From NCBI RefSeq assembly GCF_009806575.1, contig NZ_CP047095.1:3848001-3912000 (forward strand): a DNA stretch of 64,000 nt, in the 5' to 3' direction. A program made the position numbers and the translations under genes. Below the pieces are notes generated by a model that worked only from the letters and a program-made list of their open reading frames with translations, was not told the origin of the DNA and did not search any database. Position 1 is the stretch's first letter. Every line of letters starts with the position of its first letter. Shown here piece after piece: positions 39,906 to 52,235 of this stretch. This DNA is from Rossellomorea marisflavi (GTDB lineage Bacteria > Bacillota > Bacilli > Bacillales > Bacillaceae_B).

Positions 39906-39931
39906 AAAAAAAGAGGCCGTTTCACACGGCC
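39906..39931 (-). terminator. Terminator overlapping the manR stop codon
   Basis: GGCCGT-TTCAC-ACGGCC hairpin spanning the stop codon, followed by TCTTTTTTTATTTA on the minus strand. Confidence 0.8.
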
Positions 39932-41847
39932 CCGAGATGGGTCAGGAATGTCATGGCGTCACGGTCGGAGAGGAGCTGCTCGATCCGTTCCGGGTTCTCG
40001 GTGAGGTGCGAGATTTCCTGGAAGAGCTGGCGGGATTCGGCCGGTTCGGTGCTTTTGACGGCGAGGAGGAAGACGAGGGAGACTTTCTCCTCGCCCCATT
40101 CGATCGGTTCACGCAGGGTGGCGATGGCGATGGCCGACTGGTGGATGAGGTCGGGATGACCATGGGGAATGGCGATCCCTGCCCCGATGGTGGTTGCCGA
40201 CATCCGTTCGCGGATCATGGCATTTTCTATGTAGGCATGATCGACGAACCCTTTGTCCACGAGGGTCCCTGCAAGCTTCCGGATCAACTCGTAGCGGCTG
40301 GAACCTTCCTGTTGAAGAAAGACGAGGAATGGGTTGGCGAACTTCAGGATGACCGATTCCTTTTGTCCCCTCTGCACCGGGTCCTCGAGGTACGTCAATC
40401 GCTCCTTCAGCCTTTCTTCATCTTGTTTTCCGAGCAGCGGGGAAACGACGATCGCCGGGACGCCCATGTCGGGAAGGCTGATCGTGGAAATGATGAGATC
40501 CGCCTCGCTTGTCTCGAGGAAGGACTGCAGCTCCCCTTTACCGATGCTTGCCAGCACAAGGACAGACGTGAATTTCCGCTCGATTTTTGTACGAAGGAGC
40601 TGGGACATCCCCATCCCCATATGACAGACGATGACGACTCTTTTCACGTCTGTTATGGATTGTTGCAGGCGCTCGAGTGATGCCTGGAAGTGTAGGGTGA
40701 TATAGGCGGCTTCCTCTTCCGGCACCTCGATGCCTGCCAGTTCTTCAAGGACGAGCATGATCCGGTCGAACATGAACGGATACATCCGCTTGATGTCCCC
40801 GAGCATCACATTTGTGACTGGAAGTCCGTATGTCAGGCGATTCAACGTGGAATTCAAGTGCACGGTCAGACCGTTGAAGAGTTCCGGGTCACTGTAAAAA
40901 TCCACGCCGTGCATCTCGGACAGCTTCCCGAGAAGAAGATCCGTCACTTCCCCGAGTCGATTGTCGTGGCCGGTGAGCTCGCGGATCGCTTCGTCGTCCT
41001 GATATCGGAACTTCCCACCAAGGAAGTGCAGGGCCAGGTATGCCTGCTCCGCTTCGGGGAAGCGCACGGAAAAATACGGCTCGATTCCTTCGAGGAATGC
41101 CACCGTCCACCCATATTCTTTTTTCACCATAATCATCGTTTTTTCTTTTTCCGAAAGGGAGATCGTCTGCTGCAGCTTCGTCCGCTTGATCATGAGGAGG
41201 GTATGAACGACGATCCGTTCGAAGGTTTCATCGGTCAGATGAAGATCGAACCTCTCCTGCAGCTCTTCAAGCCTCCGCCGCACGATGGTGATCTCATGCT
41301 GGGTGAATTGAGCGCTAATGAAGGAATCCGCCCCATCATCCACGAGTTGTGAAAGCCGCGTCAAAGCCAGACGACGGTTCAGCTCGGTCCCTTCGATCGT
41401 GAGCCCCACCTTCTGCTTTGACAGAAGCTCCAGATCAAACCGTTTCAACCAGTCCCCGATCCGTTCGAGGTCCTTCCTGATCACCGACTTGCTTACATAA
41501 TACCGGTCTACCAGGTTCTGCACGACGACAGGGTCTGTATTCATGAGAAGAAAGTACGCAATCTGGACGATCCGATCCTCCTCATCCACATGACTGCTTC
41601 CCCTCGTTTGCAGTTCGCGGTATAGCTCCGCACGGTCGCGTCCGCCGATTTCCAGGCAGATTCCCTGACCCGGCTTCCGGATCAACTCCGCCGTCGGATA
41701 GGCTGCAATGGATTCCTGTATCACCTTGAGGTCGTTCCGCACCGTTTTTTCGGAACAGTGCAGCTCCTCACTGAATTCTTTGATCAAGACATATTCATGA
41801 TGCCGGCTCACCAGCATCCGCAAGATCTCCTGCTGTCTTTCATTCAT
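39922..41847 (-). CDS. manR: PTS-controlled transcription activator
   Basis: A 641-residue regulator like B. subtilis ManR. N-terminal helix-turn-helix domains (about 1-160; HTH_11 and Mga-like) precede two PRDs (about 180-390) with candidate regulatory His residues. An EIIB-like domain follows (VIVCHMGMGMSQLLRTKIE, Cys present), then an EIIA domain (about 495-641) with the phospho-His in GAGIAIPHGHPD. Phosphorylation by the PTS and by EIIB of ManP would set its activity at the manP promoter. ATG 41847 is preferred over GTG 41856, given AGAAGG eight bases upstream. Confidence 0.9.
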   Translation of the reverse strand: MNERQQEILRMLVSRHHEYVLIKEFSEELHCSEKTVRNDLKVIQESIAAYPTAELIRKPGQGICLEIGGRDRAELYRELQTRGSSHVDEEDRIVQIAYFLLMNTDPVVVQNLVDRYYVSKSVIRKDLERIGDWLKRFDLELLSKQKVGLTIEGTELNRRLALTRLSQLVDDGADSFISAQFTQHEITIVRRRLEELQERFDLHLTDETFERIVVHTLLMIKRTKLQQTISLSEKEKTMIMVKKEYGWTVAFLEGIEPYFSVRFPEAEQAYLALHFLGGKFRYQDDEAIRELTGHDNRLGEVTDLLLGKLSEMHGVDFYSDPELFNGLTVHLNSTLNRLTYGLPVTNVMLGDIKRMYPFMFDRIMLVLEELAGIEVPEEEAAYITLHFQASLERLQQSITDVKRVVIVCHMGMGMSQLLRTKIERKFTSVLVLASIGKGELQSFLETSEADLIISTISLPDMGVPAIVVSPLLGKQDEERLKERLTYLEDPVQRGQKESVILKFANPFLVFLQQEGSSRYELIRKLAGTLVDKGFVDHAYIENAMIRERMSATTIGAGIAIPHGHPDLIHQSAIAIATLREPIEWGEEKVSLVFLLAVKSTEPAESRQLFQEISHLTENPERIEQLLSDRDAMTFLTHLGAV

Positions 41848-41889
41848 GCTCGTCACCTTCTCTGTTTTGACAGGGAGTTTTATCTATTT

Positions 41890-41918
41890 ATGATACTTTT
41901 TGCTTACGGAAATGTAAA
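41890..41918 (-). promoter_or_regulatory. Sigma-A promoter of manR
   Basis: Minus strand TTTACA (41918-41913), 17-base spacer, TATCAT (41895-41890). A perfect palindrome CAAACGTTTG (41919-41928) abuts the -35 and may be an operator. Confidence 0.65.
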
Positions 41919-42096: not shown

Positions 42097-42445
42097 CCTA
42101 GCGGAATGGTTCGCTTATTTGCAAATTGGGTCCTGATATCAGCGATACTAAAGGTCGAAAACACTCCATCCCACCTCTATGACATCATTCGACAATTCTC
42201 GCAGCCGCTTTTCCCTGTTTTAAGGGTTCGGTCACTGTCTGGTAGGTCCAGTGACCGCAAATACTTGCGAATCCCCAAAAAATATTTGCAAAAATCCAAA
42301 AATTATTTGCGGAACTGAAAAATTTATTTGCGAGTCTGATTTCAGGTCTTTTTTTTATTTGCGAACGAAGGTGTTTACATATGATTGAATGACATCTCTT
42401 GCACTCAACATGATTTCCATACGAACCCCGCCTAATATTTGCGAA
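42097..42445. repeat. Phased TTATTTGCGAA repeat element, copy 1
   Basis: A motif close to TTATTTGCGAA recurs at 42261, 42282, 42303 and 42324 (exact 21-bp steps), again 31 bp later at 42355, and singly at 42115 and 42435. Spacers are A/T-rich. The left end shares CCTAGCGGAATGGTTCG (42097-42113) with copy 2 (CCTAGTGAAATGGTACG). It fills the gap between manA and manR. No known feature class fits. Confidence 0.8.
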
Positions 42446-42478
42446 CCCGAACCTGATCCAGCCAACACAAAAAAAGAA

Positions 42479-42507
42479 ACGCAAAACCAAAAGGTCCTGC
42501 GCTCTTC
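42479..42507 (-). terminator. Probable manA terminator
   Basis: Imperfect hairpin CGCA(AA)ACC-AAAA-GGT(CC)TGCG followed on the minus strand by TTTCTTTTTTTG, just after the manA stop. Confidence 0.6.
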
Positions 42508-42517
42508 CCTTAATCCA

Positions 42518-43465
42518 TTACACATGAGAAACAATCAATTCAACCTGACCTTCCACTTCAAACGTTTCCACATCGGCAGGGATGATGAGATGCATGCCCT
42601 TTTCCAAGACGTGGTCTTCTCCCTGCACGCGCAATGTCCCGGCTCCGCTCAGTACGCTGGCGAGCTGGAACGGCTTGTCCTGGATGAAGGATGCGTGGCC
42701 GTTCACTTCCCATTTATGCACGGTGAAGTATTCTGCTTCGACGAAGGTGGTGATGGTCACGCCGTCGCGGCTGTCGACTTCCGGCTCCACGGATTCCGCG
42801 GTATGTGGGATCGTGGTCACGGCGATGGATTTGTCGATGTGAAGCTCACGGGTGTTGCCGTCTGCATCGGTACGGTCGTAGTCGTATACGCGGTACGTCG
42901 TATCAGAGCTCTGCTGCGTTTCAAGGACGAGGGTCCCGGTGCAGAGGGCGTGGATCGTGCCGCTTGGTACATAGAAGAAGTCGCCGGGTTTGATCTTCAC
43001 GCGACGGAGCAGATCGCTCCACACACCTTTTTCGATCATGCTTGTGAATTCCTCTTTTGAAAGGGCGTTGTGGCCGAAGATCATGTCGGCTCCTTCATCA
43101 CAGTCGATGATGTACCAGCATTCAGTCTTTCCTAGCTCGCCGTTCTCATTGATATTTGCATAGCTGTCGTCCGGATGAACCTGAACGGACAGATCGGCGT
43201 TGGCATCGAGGATCTTCGTCAATAATGGGAATACAGGTGAATCGTAATTCCCGAATAATTCAGGGTGCTGATCCCAAAGTTCCCCGACGGTCTTCCCTGC
43301 GAATTCCCCGCTTCGGACGGTACTTTGTCCGTTCGGGTGCCCGGAAATGGCCCAGCACTCACCGGTCTTGTCAGAAGGAATGTCATAACCGAACTGATCC
43401 CTGAGGGCCGTCCCTCCCCAAATTCGTTCCTGGAACACGGGTGTTAAGAATAATGGTTGATTCAT
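42518..43465 (-). CDS. manA: Mannose-6-phosphate isomerase, class I
   Basis: Zinc enzyme that converts mannose-6-phosphate to fructose-6-phosphate, 315 residues, the same length as B. subtilis ManA. It has a cupin fold with zinc ligands in LSVQVHPDD and KTECWYII, and the catalytic region KPGDFFYVPSGTIHAL. The start is set at ATG 43465 behind TAGGAGGATC; the 29-residue extension in the longest frame is not supported. It is separated from manR by the repeat element. It serves both the PTS route (mannose-6-P from ManP) and the intracellular mannoside route (via the ROK kinase). Confidence 0.93.
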   Translation of the reverse strand: MNQPLFLTPVFQERIWGGTALRDQFGYDIPSDKTGECWAISGHPNGQSTVRSGEFAGKTVGELWDQHPELFGNYDSPVFPLLTKILDANADLSVQVHPDDSYANINENGELGKTECWYIIDCDEGADMIFGHNALSKEEFTSMIEKGVWSDLLRRVKIKPGDFFYVPSGTIHALCTGTLVLETQQSSDTTYRVYDYDRTDADGNTRELHIDKSIAVTTIPHTAESVEPEVDSRDGVTITTFVEAEYFTVHKWEVNGHASFIQDKPFQLASVLSGAGTLRVQGEDHVLEKGMHLIIPADVETFEVEGQVELIVSHV

Positions 43466-43728
43466 GATGATCCTCCTATGTATGTAAGAATGAACAGAGC
43501 CATTCCTTTTTTCTTCCCCACCTATTTTCTTACATTGTGAGAAGGGTTTCAATCTTTTTTATTCCATTGCCGTGTGGGAGGGGGATGCCAGGAATTGTTC
43601 ATTGACTGTTCCACCGCACTCCCCTATCTTGGAGCCATATGACCAAATCATAAAATTCGCTTGCCTTGGCATTACTATATAGAGAGATCGGGTAAGGAAT
43701 ACTGTCAGTCTTAAATGAGGTGAAAAAG

Positions 43729-44940
43729 GTGAGGATCTTTTTATACATAGCACTTGCCGCGGTAGTGGTCGGTGGCATCCTTTTTGTGAATCAAGGAAAA
43801 GAAGAGAAGGTGAAGGAAAGGCACTGGATGGGCGCCTGGATGACGGCGATGCAGGAGCCCTTCGATGACGGTGAATCCCATGAAGGGTTCAAGGATCAGA
43901 CCGTGCGCATGGTGGTCAAACCCCATGTGGACGGAGATCAGGTTCGAATCCGGCTGTCAAACGTGTTTTCTGATGAAGAGCTGAAGGTCGATAAAGTGAG
44001 TATCGGCATAACGAAAAAAGGGGCGGAAACAAAGGAAGATCCTGTATCCGTCTCCTTTGACGGTAAAAAGGATGTACGCATCCCGGCCGGCGAAAGGACC
44101 TACAGTGATTCGATCCCCATCAAGATCTCTAAAGATGAAGCTCTGACGGTGAGCCTATATTTCAAAGGGGAATCAGGACCTGCCACCTGGCACCCGCGGT
44201 CGATGCAGACGACCTATTCAGCTGATGGAGACGCCGCTGGCAAGGCAGGAAAAGACGGATTCAAATCCATTGAAAAAGGATGGTACTGGCTCGATGGGGT
44301 CGATGTGCGGACCGATAAGAAGGTCAAAGGGTCCATCGTCGTCCTCGGCAGCTCCATCGATAACGGGAACGACTCAAAGGTCGACTCCAATCACAGGTGG
44401 ACGGACTATCTGTCCGAGCGGATCAATGATGAGTCAGACGGAAAATGGACGGTCCTGAACGCAGGAATCTCTGCGAATCAGCTCCTCGACAGTCCTGAGG
44501 AAAAAGGGGAAAAAGCCCCTGATCGACTGAAGAGGGATGTGTTTGAACAAACAGGCGTGAAAGGCGTCATCGTCCATCAGGGAATCAACGATATCCGCCA
44601 TCACCCGGAGACAGATGCCGTGACCATCATCGATGAAATGAAGGCCATGATCAAGGAGGCCCATAAGAACGGCGTCGAAATCTATGGAGTCACGATCTCC
44701 CCATACAATGACTCAGGAAAATACACCGCGGAAGGCGACCGGACGCGCCGCAAAGTCAACGCATGGATGCGGAATAGCGGTGCCTTCGACGGGGTGATCG
44801 ACTTTGATAAAGTGCTGCGGAATCCCGATGATCCATCCAGACTCCAGCCGAAATACAATTCAGGGGACGGACTGCATCCGAATGAAGCAGGGTACCGGAA
44901 AATGGCCGAGACGGTAAAATTGAAGATGTTTGACCATTGA
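43729..44940 (+). CDS. Membrane-anchored SGNH/GDSL hydrolase
   Basis: A 403-residue esterase-like protein. An N-terminal membrane anchor or uncleaved signal (about 1-20) is followed by a beta domain (about 30-190). The SGNH domain has the Ser block as GSSIDNG (in place of GDSI), the Asn block as HQGINDI, and the catalytic Asp-His as DGLHPNEAGY. It probably removes acyl groups from a surface glycan or lipid outside the cell. The start is at GTG 43729, with GAGGTG six bases upstream. Another GTG at 43720 lacks a binding site. It ends at a strong terminator. Confidence 0.85.
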   Translation: MRIFLYIALAAVVVGGILFVNQGKEEKVKERHWMGAWMTAMQEPFDDGESHEGFKDQTVRMVVKPHVDGDQVRIRLSNVFSDEELKVDKVSIGITKKGAETKEDPVSVSFDGKKDVRIPAGERTYSDSIPIKISKDEALTVSLYFKGESGPATWHPRSMQTTYSADGDAAGKAGKDGFKSIEKGWYWLDGVDVRTDKKVKGSIVVLGSSIDNGNDSKVDSNHRWTDYLSERINDESDGKWTVLNAGISANQLLDSPEEKGEKAPDRLKRDVFEQTGVKGVIVHQGINDIRHHPETDAVTIIDEMKAMIKEAHKNGVEIYGVTISPYNDSGKYTAEGDRTRRKVNAWMRNSGAFDGVIDFDKVLRNPDDPSRLQPKYNSGDGLHPNEAGYRKMAETVKLKMFDH

Positions 44941-51903: not shown

Positions 51904-52235
51904 CCTAGTGAAATGGTACGGGTATTTGCGAACGGAGGCCATTTACCATGAGTTCCCTTCACTGATCCCGCCTCCAGAGCACCTAAATCCTTTAAAACTA
52001 GCTCATTTTGATTGAAATCGACCATCTTTAAGCCCTCTCAGTACCTCCCCCACCCCCATTCCCTTCAATTATTTGCGAAAATCAAAAATTTACTTGCGCG
52101 TTTTTGAAATTTATCTGCGAAAAATCCAATTCTATTTGCGAACTCATTTTTCTGCCATCCCTCTATTTGTATAAAAAATAAGATACATATGAATTAATAA
52201 GGTTATCATCGACCATCAGCGATTATTTGCGACTC
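51904..52235. repeat. Phased TTATTTGCGAA repeat element, copy 2
   Basis: Motifs begin at 52069, 52090, 52111 and 52132, exact 21-bp steps, with single copies at 51923 and 52223. The left block CCTAGTGAAATGGTACG (51904-51920) lies at the same position relative to the next motif as in copy 1. The distance from that motif to the array is 147 bp (146 in copy 1). An ACATATGAATTAAT block (52185) also has a counterpart in copy 1 (42377). The gap 51780-52324 holds no gene. Confidence 0.8.

Follow-up and report, generated by a model that had tools for sequence, protein, structure and literature searches.

The manA-manR gap

The window, by which we mean the whole 64-kb stretch of DNA that was analysed (G000:C1:3848001-3912000, from the Rossellomorea genome G000), contains a gap flanked by two genes on the minus strand. 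The first, manA (42518..43552), encodes a mannose-6-phosphate isomerase (TIGR00218, 291 bits) and is given as the longest reading frame, with a provisional start codon. The second, here called manR (39922..41856), encodes a PTS/PRD-type regulator that matches the AcpB/EbpR/MafR and PTS EIIA profiles, both under their cut-offs. A terminator-like hairpin after manA (42477..42504, minus strand) and a promoter-like site before manR (41890..41918, minus strand), which are consensus matches only, lie on either side of the element described here. On the plus strand at 43720-44940, the window also encodes a 406-aa protein without an NCBIfam match at 1e-3.

The central part of the element is an array of five phased TTTGC/CTTGC sites (42261..42365, plus strand), which start at 42261, 42282, 42303, 42324 and 42355. 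The core G of these sites falls at 42267, 42288, 42309, 42330 and 42361, with steps of 21, 21, 21 and 31 bp, exactly as the original prediction had it. Tandem Repeats Finder reports a period of 21 over 42259-42333 with 74% matches, and when the 64 kb were scanned for lags of 10-60 at thresholds of 22 and 26, this array, at lag 21, was the sole segment returned. The same frame fits all of the copies found elsewhere in the genome (see below). The array is accompanied by an outlying first site found by motif search (TTATTTGCAAA, 42115..42125, plus strand), at a site-to-array distance of 146 bp here and 185-186 bp in several other copies. A conserved block upstream of the array (TGACATCATTCGACAATTCTCGCA, 42180..42203, plus strand) was recovered in two alignments; it is clear in six of the eight aligned copies and absent from L002 and L009. 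Motif search also found an outlying last site (ATATTTGCGAA, 42435..42445, plus strand).

The whole element spans 42115..42445 (plus strand), with a profile hit at G000:C1:3890174-3890368 (E 3e-34) from a profile whose building set includes this copy. A second copy is present in the window at 51922..52233 (plus strand; profile hit G000:C1:3899987-3900175, E 9e-30, again with the copy in the building set). Its array has sites at 52069, 52090, 52111 and 52132 plus a weak site at 52163, and fell below the threshold of the lag scan.

The abundance of the motif is not itself raised: allowing up to two mismatches, TTAYTTGCGAA occurs 32 times in the window against 26.9 expected, and 21 of 100 shuffles reached as high a count. 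What is unusual is its clustering, with 14 of the 32 occurrences in two gaps, together with its phasing. Across the genome the exact 11-mer occurs 11 times (reversed control, 1). Pairs of TTTGCG up to 30 bp apart number 17 (reversed control, 16), and 12 of the 17 are at steps of 20, 21 or 31, in a listing of steps that covers the motif pairs alone.

A dispersed element in the Rossellomorea genome

The original prediction would have lost its force if the genome held just the two arrays of the window. A sequence profile built from eight copies instead found 11 strong copies (E <= 1.4e-22) in the genome, three of them beyond the eight used for building, with weaker hits below. Aligned copies reveal an element larger than the array, in which the five sites are joined by an outlying site, TTATTTGCGACTTTTT, and by a block that surrounds TGACACCATTCGACATTCCTCGCA and is missing from two of the eight copies; this wider element had escaped the original prediction, as had the link to NERD genes described below. 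The frame 0/21/42/63/94 fits all 11 copies, with at least four of the six core letters kept at 52 of 55 sites and three kept at the other three. Information per position is 1.71 bits in the cores, 0.87 in the rest of the array and 0.70 in the upstream part.

rRNA operons account for five of the 11 copies, each on the 3' side of the 5S gene, and in the one rRNA-linked copy that was read (L012) a terminator-like hairpin separates the 5S gene from the element. The genome has nine 5S genes, and the four without an element continue into tRNA-like genes, as judged by eye. Other copies adjoin manA, eno, an rsuA-like gene, dnaB, a NUDIX/NAD-binding gene pair and a transporter pair. No copy lies between 1.03 and 3.23 Mb of the 4.41-Mb genome, an origin-proximal placing that we do not press since it arises partly because five copies are rRNA-linked. 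Arrays are sparse in the surveyed 800 kb of this genome. Two further arrays on G000:C1, L023 (790838) and L024 (817623), have other cores (TTACCGAC and a mixed array) and are possibly leftovers of earlier NERD specificities.

The arrays could in principle be host structural sites that are read by shape, by gyrase, by supercoiling or by a nucleoid protein, with NERD genes merely adjoining some of them. Such a role would suit the element's presence after five of the nine rRNA operons, namely the ones without a continuation into tRNA genes as judged by eye, and also a spacing that persists while the cores differ. The core letters nevertheless follow the sequence of the NERD protein, such arrays are rare at ordinary genes and the G000 copies are without raised curvature, and we regard this explanation as distinctly improbable. 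Intrinsically bent DNA, which the original prediction had offered beside a multimeric protein, found no support: the 11 G000 copies have a mean z of -0.38 against their own shuffles in a wedge model of curvature. Under the same model, four of five arrays from other species were unremarkable, and L120 was raised (z 2.7).

Several other candidates were tried and rejected. A step of 21 bp would suit coding repeats of seven codons, yet no reading frame survives the 31-bp step or the 20-bp period seen in related arrays. Structured RNA was dismissed with two-sided change at one of 13 predicted pairs and no Rfam match in the window, and a strand-bound RNA function with arrays that have no orientation preference. 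As for a mobile element or phage, one copy of the element had no plasmid match and another no phage match, and NERD proteins had no match in plasmids, phages or viral contigs, in collections that may omit records near this genome.

Arrays and switched cores in related genomes

Two close genomes, G027 and G034, encode ManR proteins that are 96 and 98% identical to that of G000, and BLAST of fetched stretches shows that they hold 10 and 8 of the 11 copies, respectively, in the same surroundings. In the comparison of the manA-manR gap that the original prediction had proposed, G034 keeps the frame and G027 is short of exactly one 21-bp unit. Two distant genomes have another core upstream of manR. 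These two, G013 and G004, are among five genomes with ManR orthologues at 53-57% identity, and each has a GCATGATT/GCACGATT array upstream of manR, with steps of 20 and 41, three and four units, and 0 of 10 shuffles each; the next gene there may differ from manA. By eye, these arrays (L082, L083) resemble NERD cores of the GGCTGGATT kind. The core finder detected no array at the other three orthologues of 53-57% identity or at three of 44-47%, and it also missed the G027 manA-manR array, which is plain by eye.

Orthologous arrays differ at 119 of 1437 positions and their flanks at 528 of 3744, in comparisons that share ancestry. By part, and with the same shared ancestry, differences number 56 of 414 in the 31-bp gap, 316 of 2086 upstream and 212 of 1658 downstream. 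The contrast between cores (36 of 534) and spacers (83 of 903) is weak (p 0.11; shared ancestry again applies).

These data bear on whether the arrays are neutral minisatellites, 20/21-bp units multiplied by slippage and devoid of meaning. The clean loss of a unit in G027 is what slippage would produce, and mixed units are seen within arrays such as L051 and L120. Slippage would not be expected to give a frame with a 31-bp step that fits 11 dispersed copies, arrays that differ less than their flanks between orthologues, or the same lags and the same covariation with protein across many genera. We consider neutral minisatellites very unlikely indeed.

A profile search of 61 genomes gave matches at E <= 0.01 in 35 of them, strong in G000, G027 and G034 and weak elsewhere. 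The weak matches that were read (L032-L058) were mostly similarly spaced arrays with other cores, which L057 is not. ATCRGCG pairs occur in 34 of 36 genomes of the genus, also off phase; G014 contains 82 such pairs (control, 0), of which 78 are spaced at 20 or 21. Scanning named genomes returned 46 stretches. Hits in other taxa numbered 21, of which 14 were read: 13 appear unrelated, and the other, L176 from the cyanobacterium Westiellopsis prolifica, is a tandem 21-bp ATCAGCGAAATACAAA array that may or may not be related. Repeated ATCAGCGAAATC elements in a Saprospiraceae MAG (L165, L167, L171, L172 and L175) apparently form a separate repeat family. In the R. aquimaris group, arrays (L126, L177; L120, L148) lie between a T-box-like leader, recognized by eye, and the start of a gene that is either proS, again by eye, or of the tyrosyl-tRNA synthetase type.

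The same array places recur across species. At the two places followed up where G000 and G027 differ, an array is present in each genome and the core is different. In the cshA-uvsE gap, the G000 array carries the core that belongs to this genome's NERD gene (GTTGAAAGTAAA), and G027 and G034 have the TCGCAA type. In the eno gap, it is G027 that has the core of its own NERD gene (GTCGGTAGAAAA); G000 has TTTGCGA, and G034 has a strong profile hit of the TTTGCGA type.

Arrays upstream of NERD-domain genes

The neighbours of the arrays pointed to a NERD-domain gene, which was found beside arrays of three different cores. The family comprises proteins of about 325 aa with a NERD nuclease-related domain (PF08378) above the curated cut-off, a zinc-ribbon-like motif of four cysteines and a C-terminal portion whose sequence looks like that of a winged helix. 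A Pfam scan of three of these proteins found NERD alone over cut-off and no winged-helix, HUH or Rep family. E46, D79, E92 and K94 and the four cysteines are invariant in 75 of 75 proteins, and the first four fit what we take to be a nuclease-type acidic/lysine pattern, that of a putative nuclease. PF08378 is found in all 36 genomes of the genus, with 1-10 matches each, and B. subtilis was without a hit among the control genomes. Homologues of the family are spread over 227 of the 299 genomes searched in the order, and over 86 of 116 genera. A NERD-protein search of the window and 79 other stretches matched nothing beyond the known gene and a weak stretch in L205 (91 residues, E 0.001).

In the first 30 PF08378 loci, a 20/21-bp segment was found in 7 of 10 loci of the longest class (about 330 aa) and in 1 of 20 of the two shorter classes. 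A further 40 loci, taken in E-value order with the shorter classes and one 271-aa hit left out, had a top lag of 20, 21, 41 or 42 in 29 cases, no lag in six and lags of 15 or 33 in five, which look like coding repeats of the upstream gene. Among the best 30 loci of an order-wide search, five of which come from the genus, the top lag was 20, 21, 40, 41 or 42 in 18 and absent in 12; that no other top lag appeared is a better internal control than ordinary upstream regions. A related test on 474 such regions gave any segment in 25 and one at 20, 21 or 42 in three, an approximate comparison given that the finders depend on composition and that these regions come from the G000 genome itself (about 50% G+C) and the NERD loci from many genomes.

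With the core finder, an 11-mer repeated in phase three or more times was detected upstream in 77 of 89 entries, equal to 71 of 83 distinct NERD loci. Doubt attaches to some of these 71 cores: those of L320 and L324 have irregular steps, and those of L333, L340 and L345 are weak. Regular 20/21-bp arrays precede 69 of the 83 loci (52/58 within the genus and 17/25 outside it), and a mononucleotide-shuffle control of the NERD upstream regions gave 1 of 445. Nineteen of twenty further long-class loci from six genomes also have an array, which leaves NERD loci without one at 12 of 83 and 1 of 20. Five or six units are present in 46 of the 71 arrays. L266 and L269 have steps of 30, 21, 21 and 21, which corresponds to the window spacing seen on the other strand.

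The placing of these arrays could also be that of ordinary operators, with NERD acting as a conventional autoregulator and the solo arrays serving a normal regulon. The arrays do lie close upstream of the NERD start codon, ending 81-120 bp before the inferred start in 45 of 71. Their orientation, read with a crude pattern, is sense only in 36 of the 71 and antisense only in seven (both in three, undecided in 25). However, 65 arrays compared with their flanking genes favour neither strand (19 ++, 18 --, 20 +- and 8 -+, with heuristic reading frames); a histogram of array steps from the same comparison admitted preselected steps alone and carries no weight here. Arrays also follow rRNA operons, separate metY from metX and occupy gaps where genes converge, and no common function was seen among their neighbours. 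An ordinary regulon is, in our judgement, an unlikely account.

Covariation of cores and proteins

Cores differ between NERD paralogues and track protein similarity chiefly via the C-terminal half. Across 75 distinct proteins, core similarity rises with protein identity from 0.49 at 30-40% to 0.62 at 50-55%, 0.85 at 60-70% and 0.95 above 80%. The Mantel correlation between core and protein is 0.286 (67 proteins with a core, 2211 pairs), and 0 of 999 permutations, which ignore kinship, reached this value. In a rank regression, residues 1-40 receive a weight of 0.04 and the NERD domain one of 0.009; the linker has 0.155, the cysteine motif 0.143 and the C-terminus 0.184. The correlation need not mean recognition, because a gene and its adjacent upstream DNA descend together, and joint descent could account for part of it. 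What supports recognition beyond joint descent, without proving it, is the unequal weighting of the segments together with the matches of solo arrays.

Solo arrays were sorted into 19 groups with cores typed by reading, and a match was defined as a similarity of at least 0.9 to a NERD core of the same genome. Thirteen of the 19 groups have such a match, 10 at first and three after further loci were fetched; for the first ten, cores of other genomes match equally in up to 0.16 of cases. Six groups are unmatched: three consist of TTTGCGA arrays, in G000, G027 and G034, and the other three come one apiece from G021, G024 and G005. No NERD gene with a TTTGCGA core was found in G000, G027 or G034, each of which has one long-class homologue (best similarity 0.73, 0.78 and 0.55, respectively); for G000, the comparison covers its located NERD gene, and a second PF08378 hit lies outside it. 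The long-class protein of G000 (L255, G000:C1:4380555-4381460) has 303 aa against 323 in G034 and G027, with an earlier end. G034 and G027 have NERD proteins of 60% identity, with differing cores, at what looks like a shared locus, while their ManR proteins match the one of G000 at 96-98% identity.

The window array thus has the spacing of the NERD-linked phased arrays (20/21 bp, with 30/31 allowed) and falls short of the core match within its own genome (0.73). The NERD core closest to TTTGCGA belongs to another species, and therefore the window arrays look orphaned in G000. They may have lost, or never had, a cognate NERD gene there. The failure to find a cognate gene in G000, and the extra conserved parts of the element, would also be expected if the window array belonged to an unrelated site family that merely resembles the NERD-linked arrays. 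We give that reading little credence, as a very similar core lies upstream of a NERD gene in G025 (L276, similarity 0.91), and gaps with a window-type array in one species hold NERD-core arrays in another.

Interpretation

Taken together, we consider it likely that the window array is a solo copy of an iteron-like site, of a kind that lies 5' of NERD-family genes and would be bound head to tail on one face of the helix. The original prediction of a multimeric DNA-binding protein on one helix face is accordingly the best-supported part of its reading, now with a candidate family. The repeats seem to have changed in step with the protein, as would be expected if the protein bound them, and phasing at two (and three) helical turns fits head-to-tail binding of the kind known from plasmid iterons. 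Several NERD protein molecules would line up on a single DNA face in head-to-tail order, one for every two helical turns, with each paralogue recognizing its own core via its C-terminal half. The array upstream of a NERD gene would probably serve autoregulation, and solo arrays could be extra binding places maintained in fixed gaps. A change in protein specificity would then leave the arrays in old gaps orphaned or rewritten. We infer binding, autoregulation and rewriting by NERD proteins from these patterns in the DNA and protein sequences.

If true, this explanation would provide a function for a nuclease-related domain whose role is largely untried, and would account for a class of intergenic repeats. 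It would also offer many natural protein-core pairs, often with several paralogues of differing cores in one genome, from which a DNA recognition code could be derived. A literature search, mostly of open-access papers and of the top-ranked results of long lists, returned no report that joins NERD genes with arrays.

Comparison with known systems

STAR elements of Staphylococcus are likewise an intergenic iterated motif with variable spacers and no known function, and differ from the arrays described here in spacing and sequence. To our knowledge, they have no partner protein.

The TAACTGA repeats of Beggiatoaceae are lineage-restricted intergenic direct repeats whose binder is not known (PMC4679880). 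They differ in being heptamers that are mostly found just before start codons and are thought to act in translation, and the abstract describes no linked protein family (PMC4679880).

The Staphylococcus aureus protein SmdA shares the NERD domain (PF08378) with the array-linked family. It is described as a membrane protein with effects on cell shape and on division, and its authors state that, to their knowledge, NERD function had not been studied previously; the excerpted account of SmdA mentions no repeats (PMC9040797).

Plasmid-origin iterons occur as two to seven direct repeats per origin and are bound cooperatively by a winged-helix Rep protein, and displacement by half a turn abolishes cooperativity (PMC4980987). 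The arrays described here differ in being chromosomal and in having no Rep protein. The marks of an iteron replicon were missing: one NERD protein had no plasmid or phage match, and three scanned proteins contained no Rep family.

REPtrons, which consist of REP sequences with a RAYT/TnpA-REP protein, pair dispersed repeats with a co-evolved chromosomal DNA-processing protein (PMC8266576). The array family recalls them in its dispersed repeats, its chromosomal protein and the joint change of repeat and protein (PMC8266576). In contrast to REPs, which are palindromic and handled in single-stranded form by an HUH enzyme, the repeats here are direct, spaced at two turns and associated with a NERD, zinc-motif protein. 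The consensus of 55 sites is not palindromic by eye, and no HUH protein was present among the three scanned. A bolder possibility, which we put forward tentatively and hold to be doubtful, is that the NERD family both reads and rewrites its own arrays, with a putative cleavage or strand-processing activity that would drive copying and core conversion; arrays in fixed gaps would in this way keep up with every shift in the specificity of the protein. It would then represent a direct-repeat counterpart of REPtrons across Bacillus-like bacteria.
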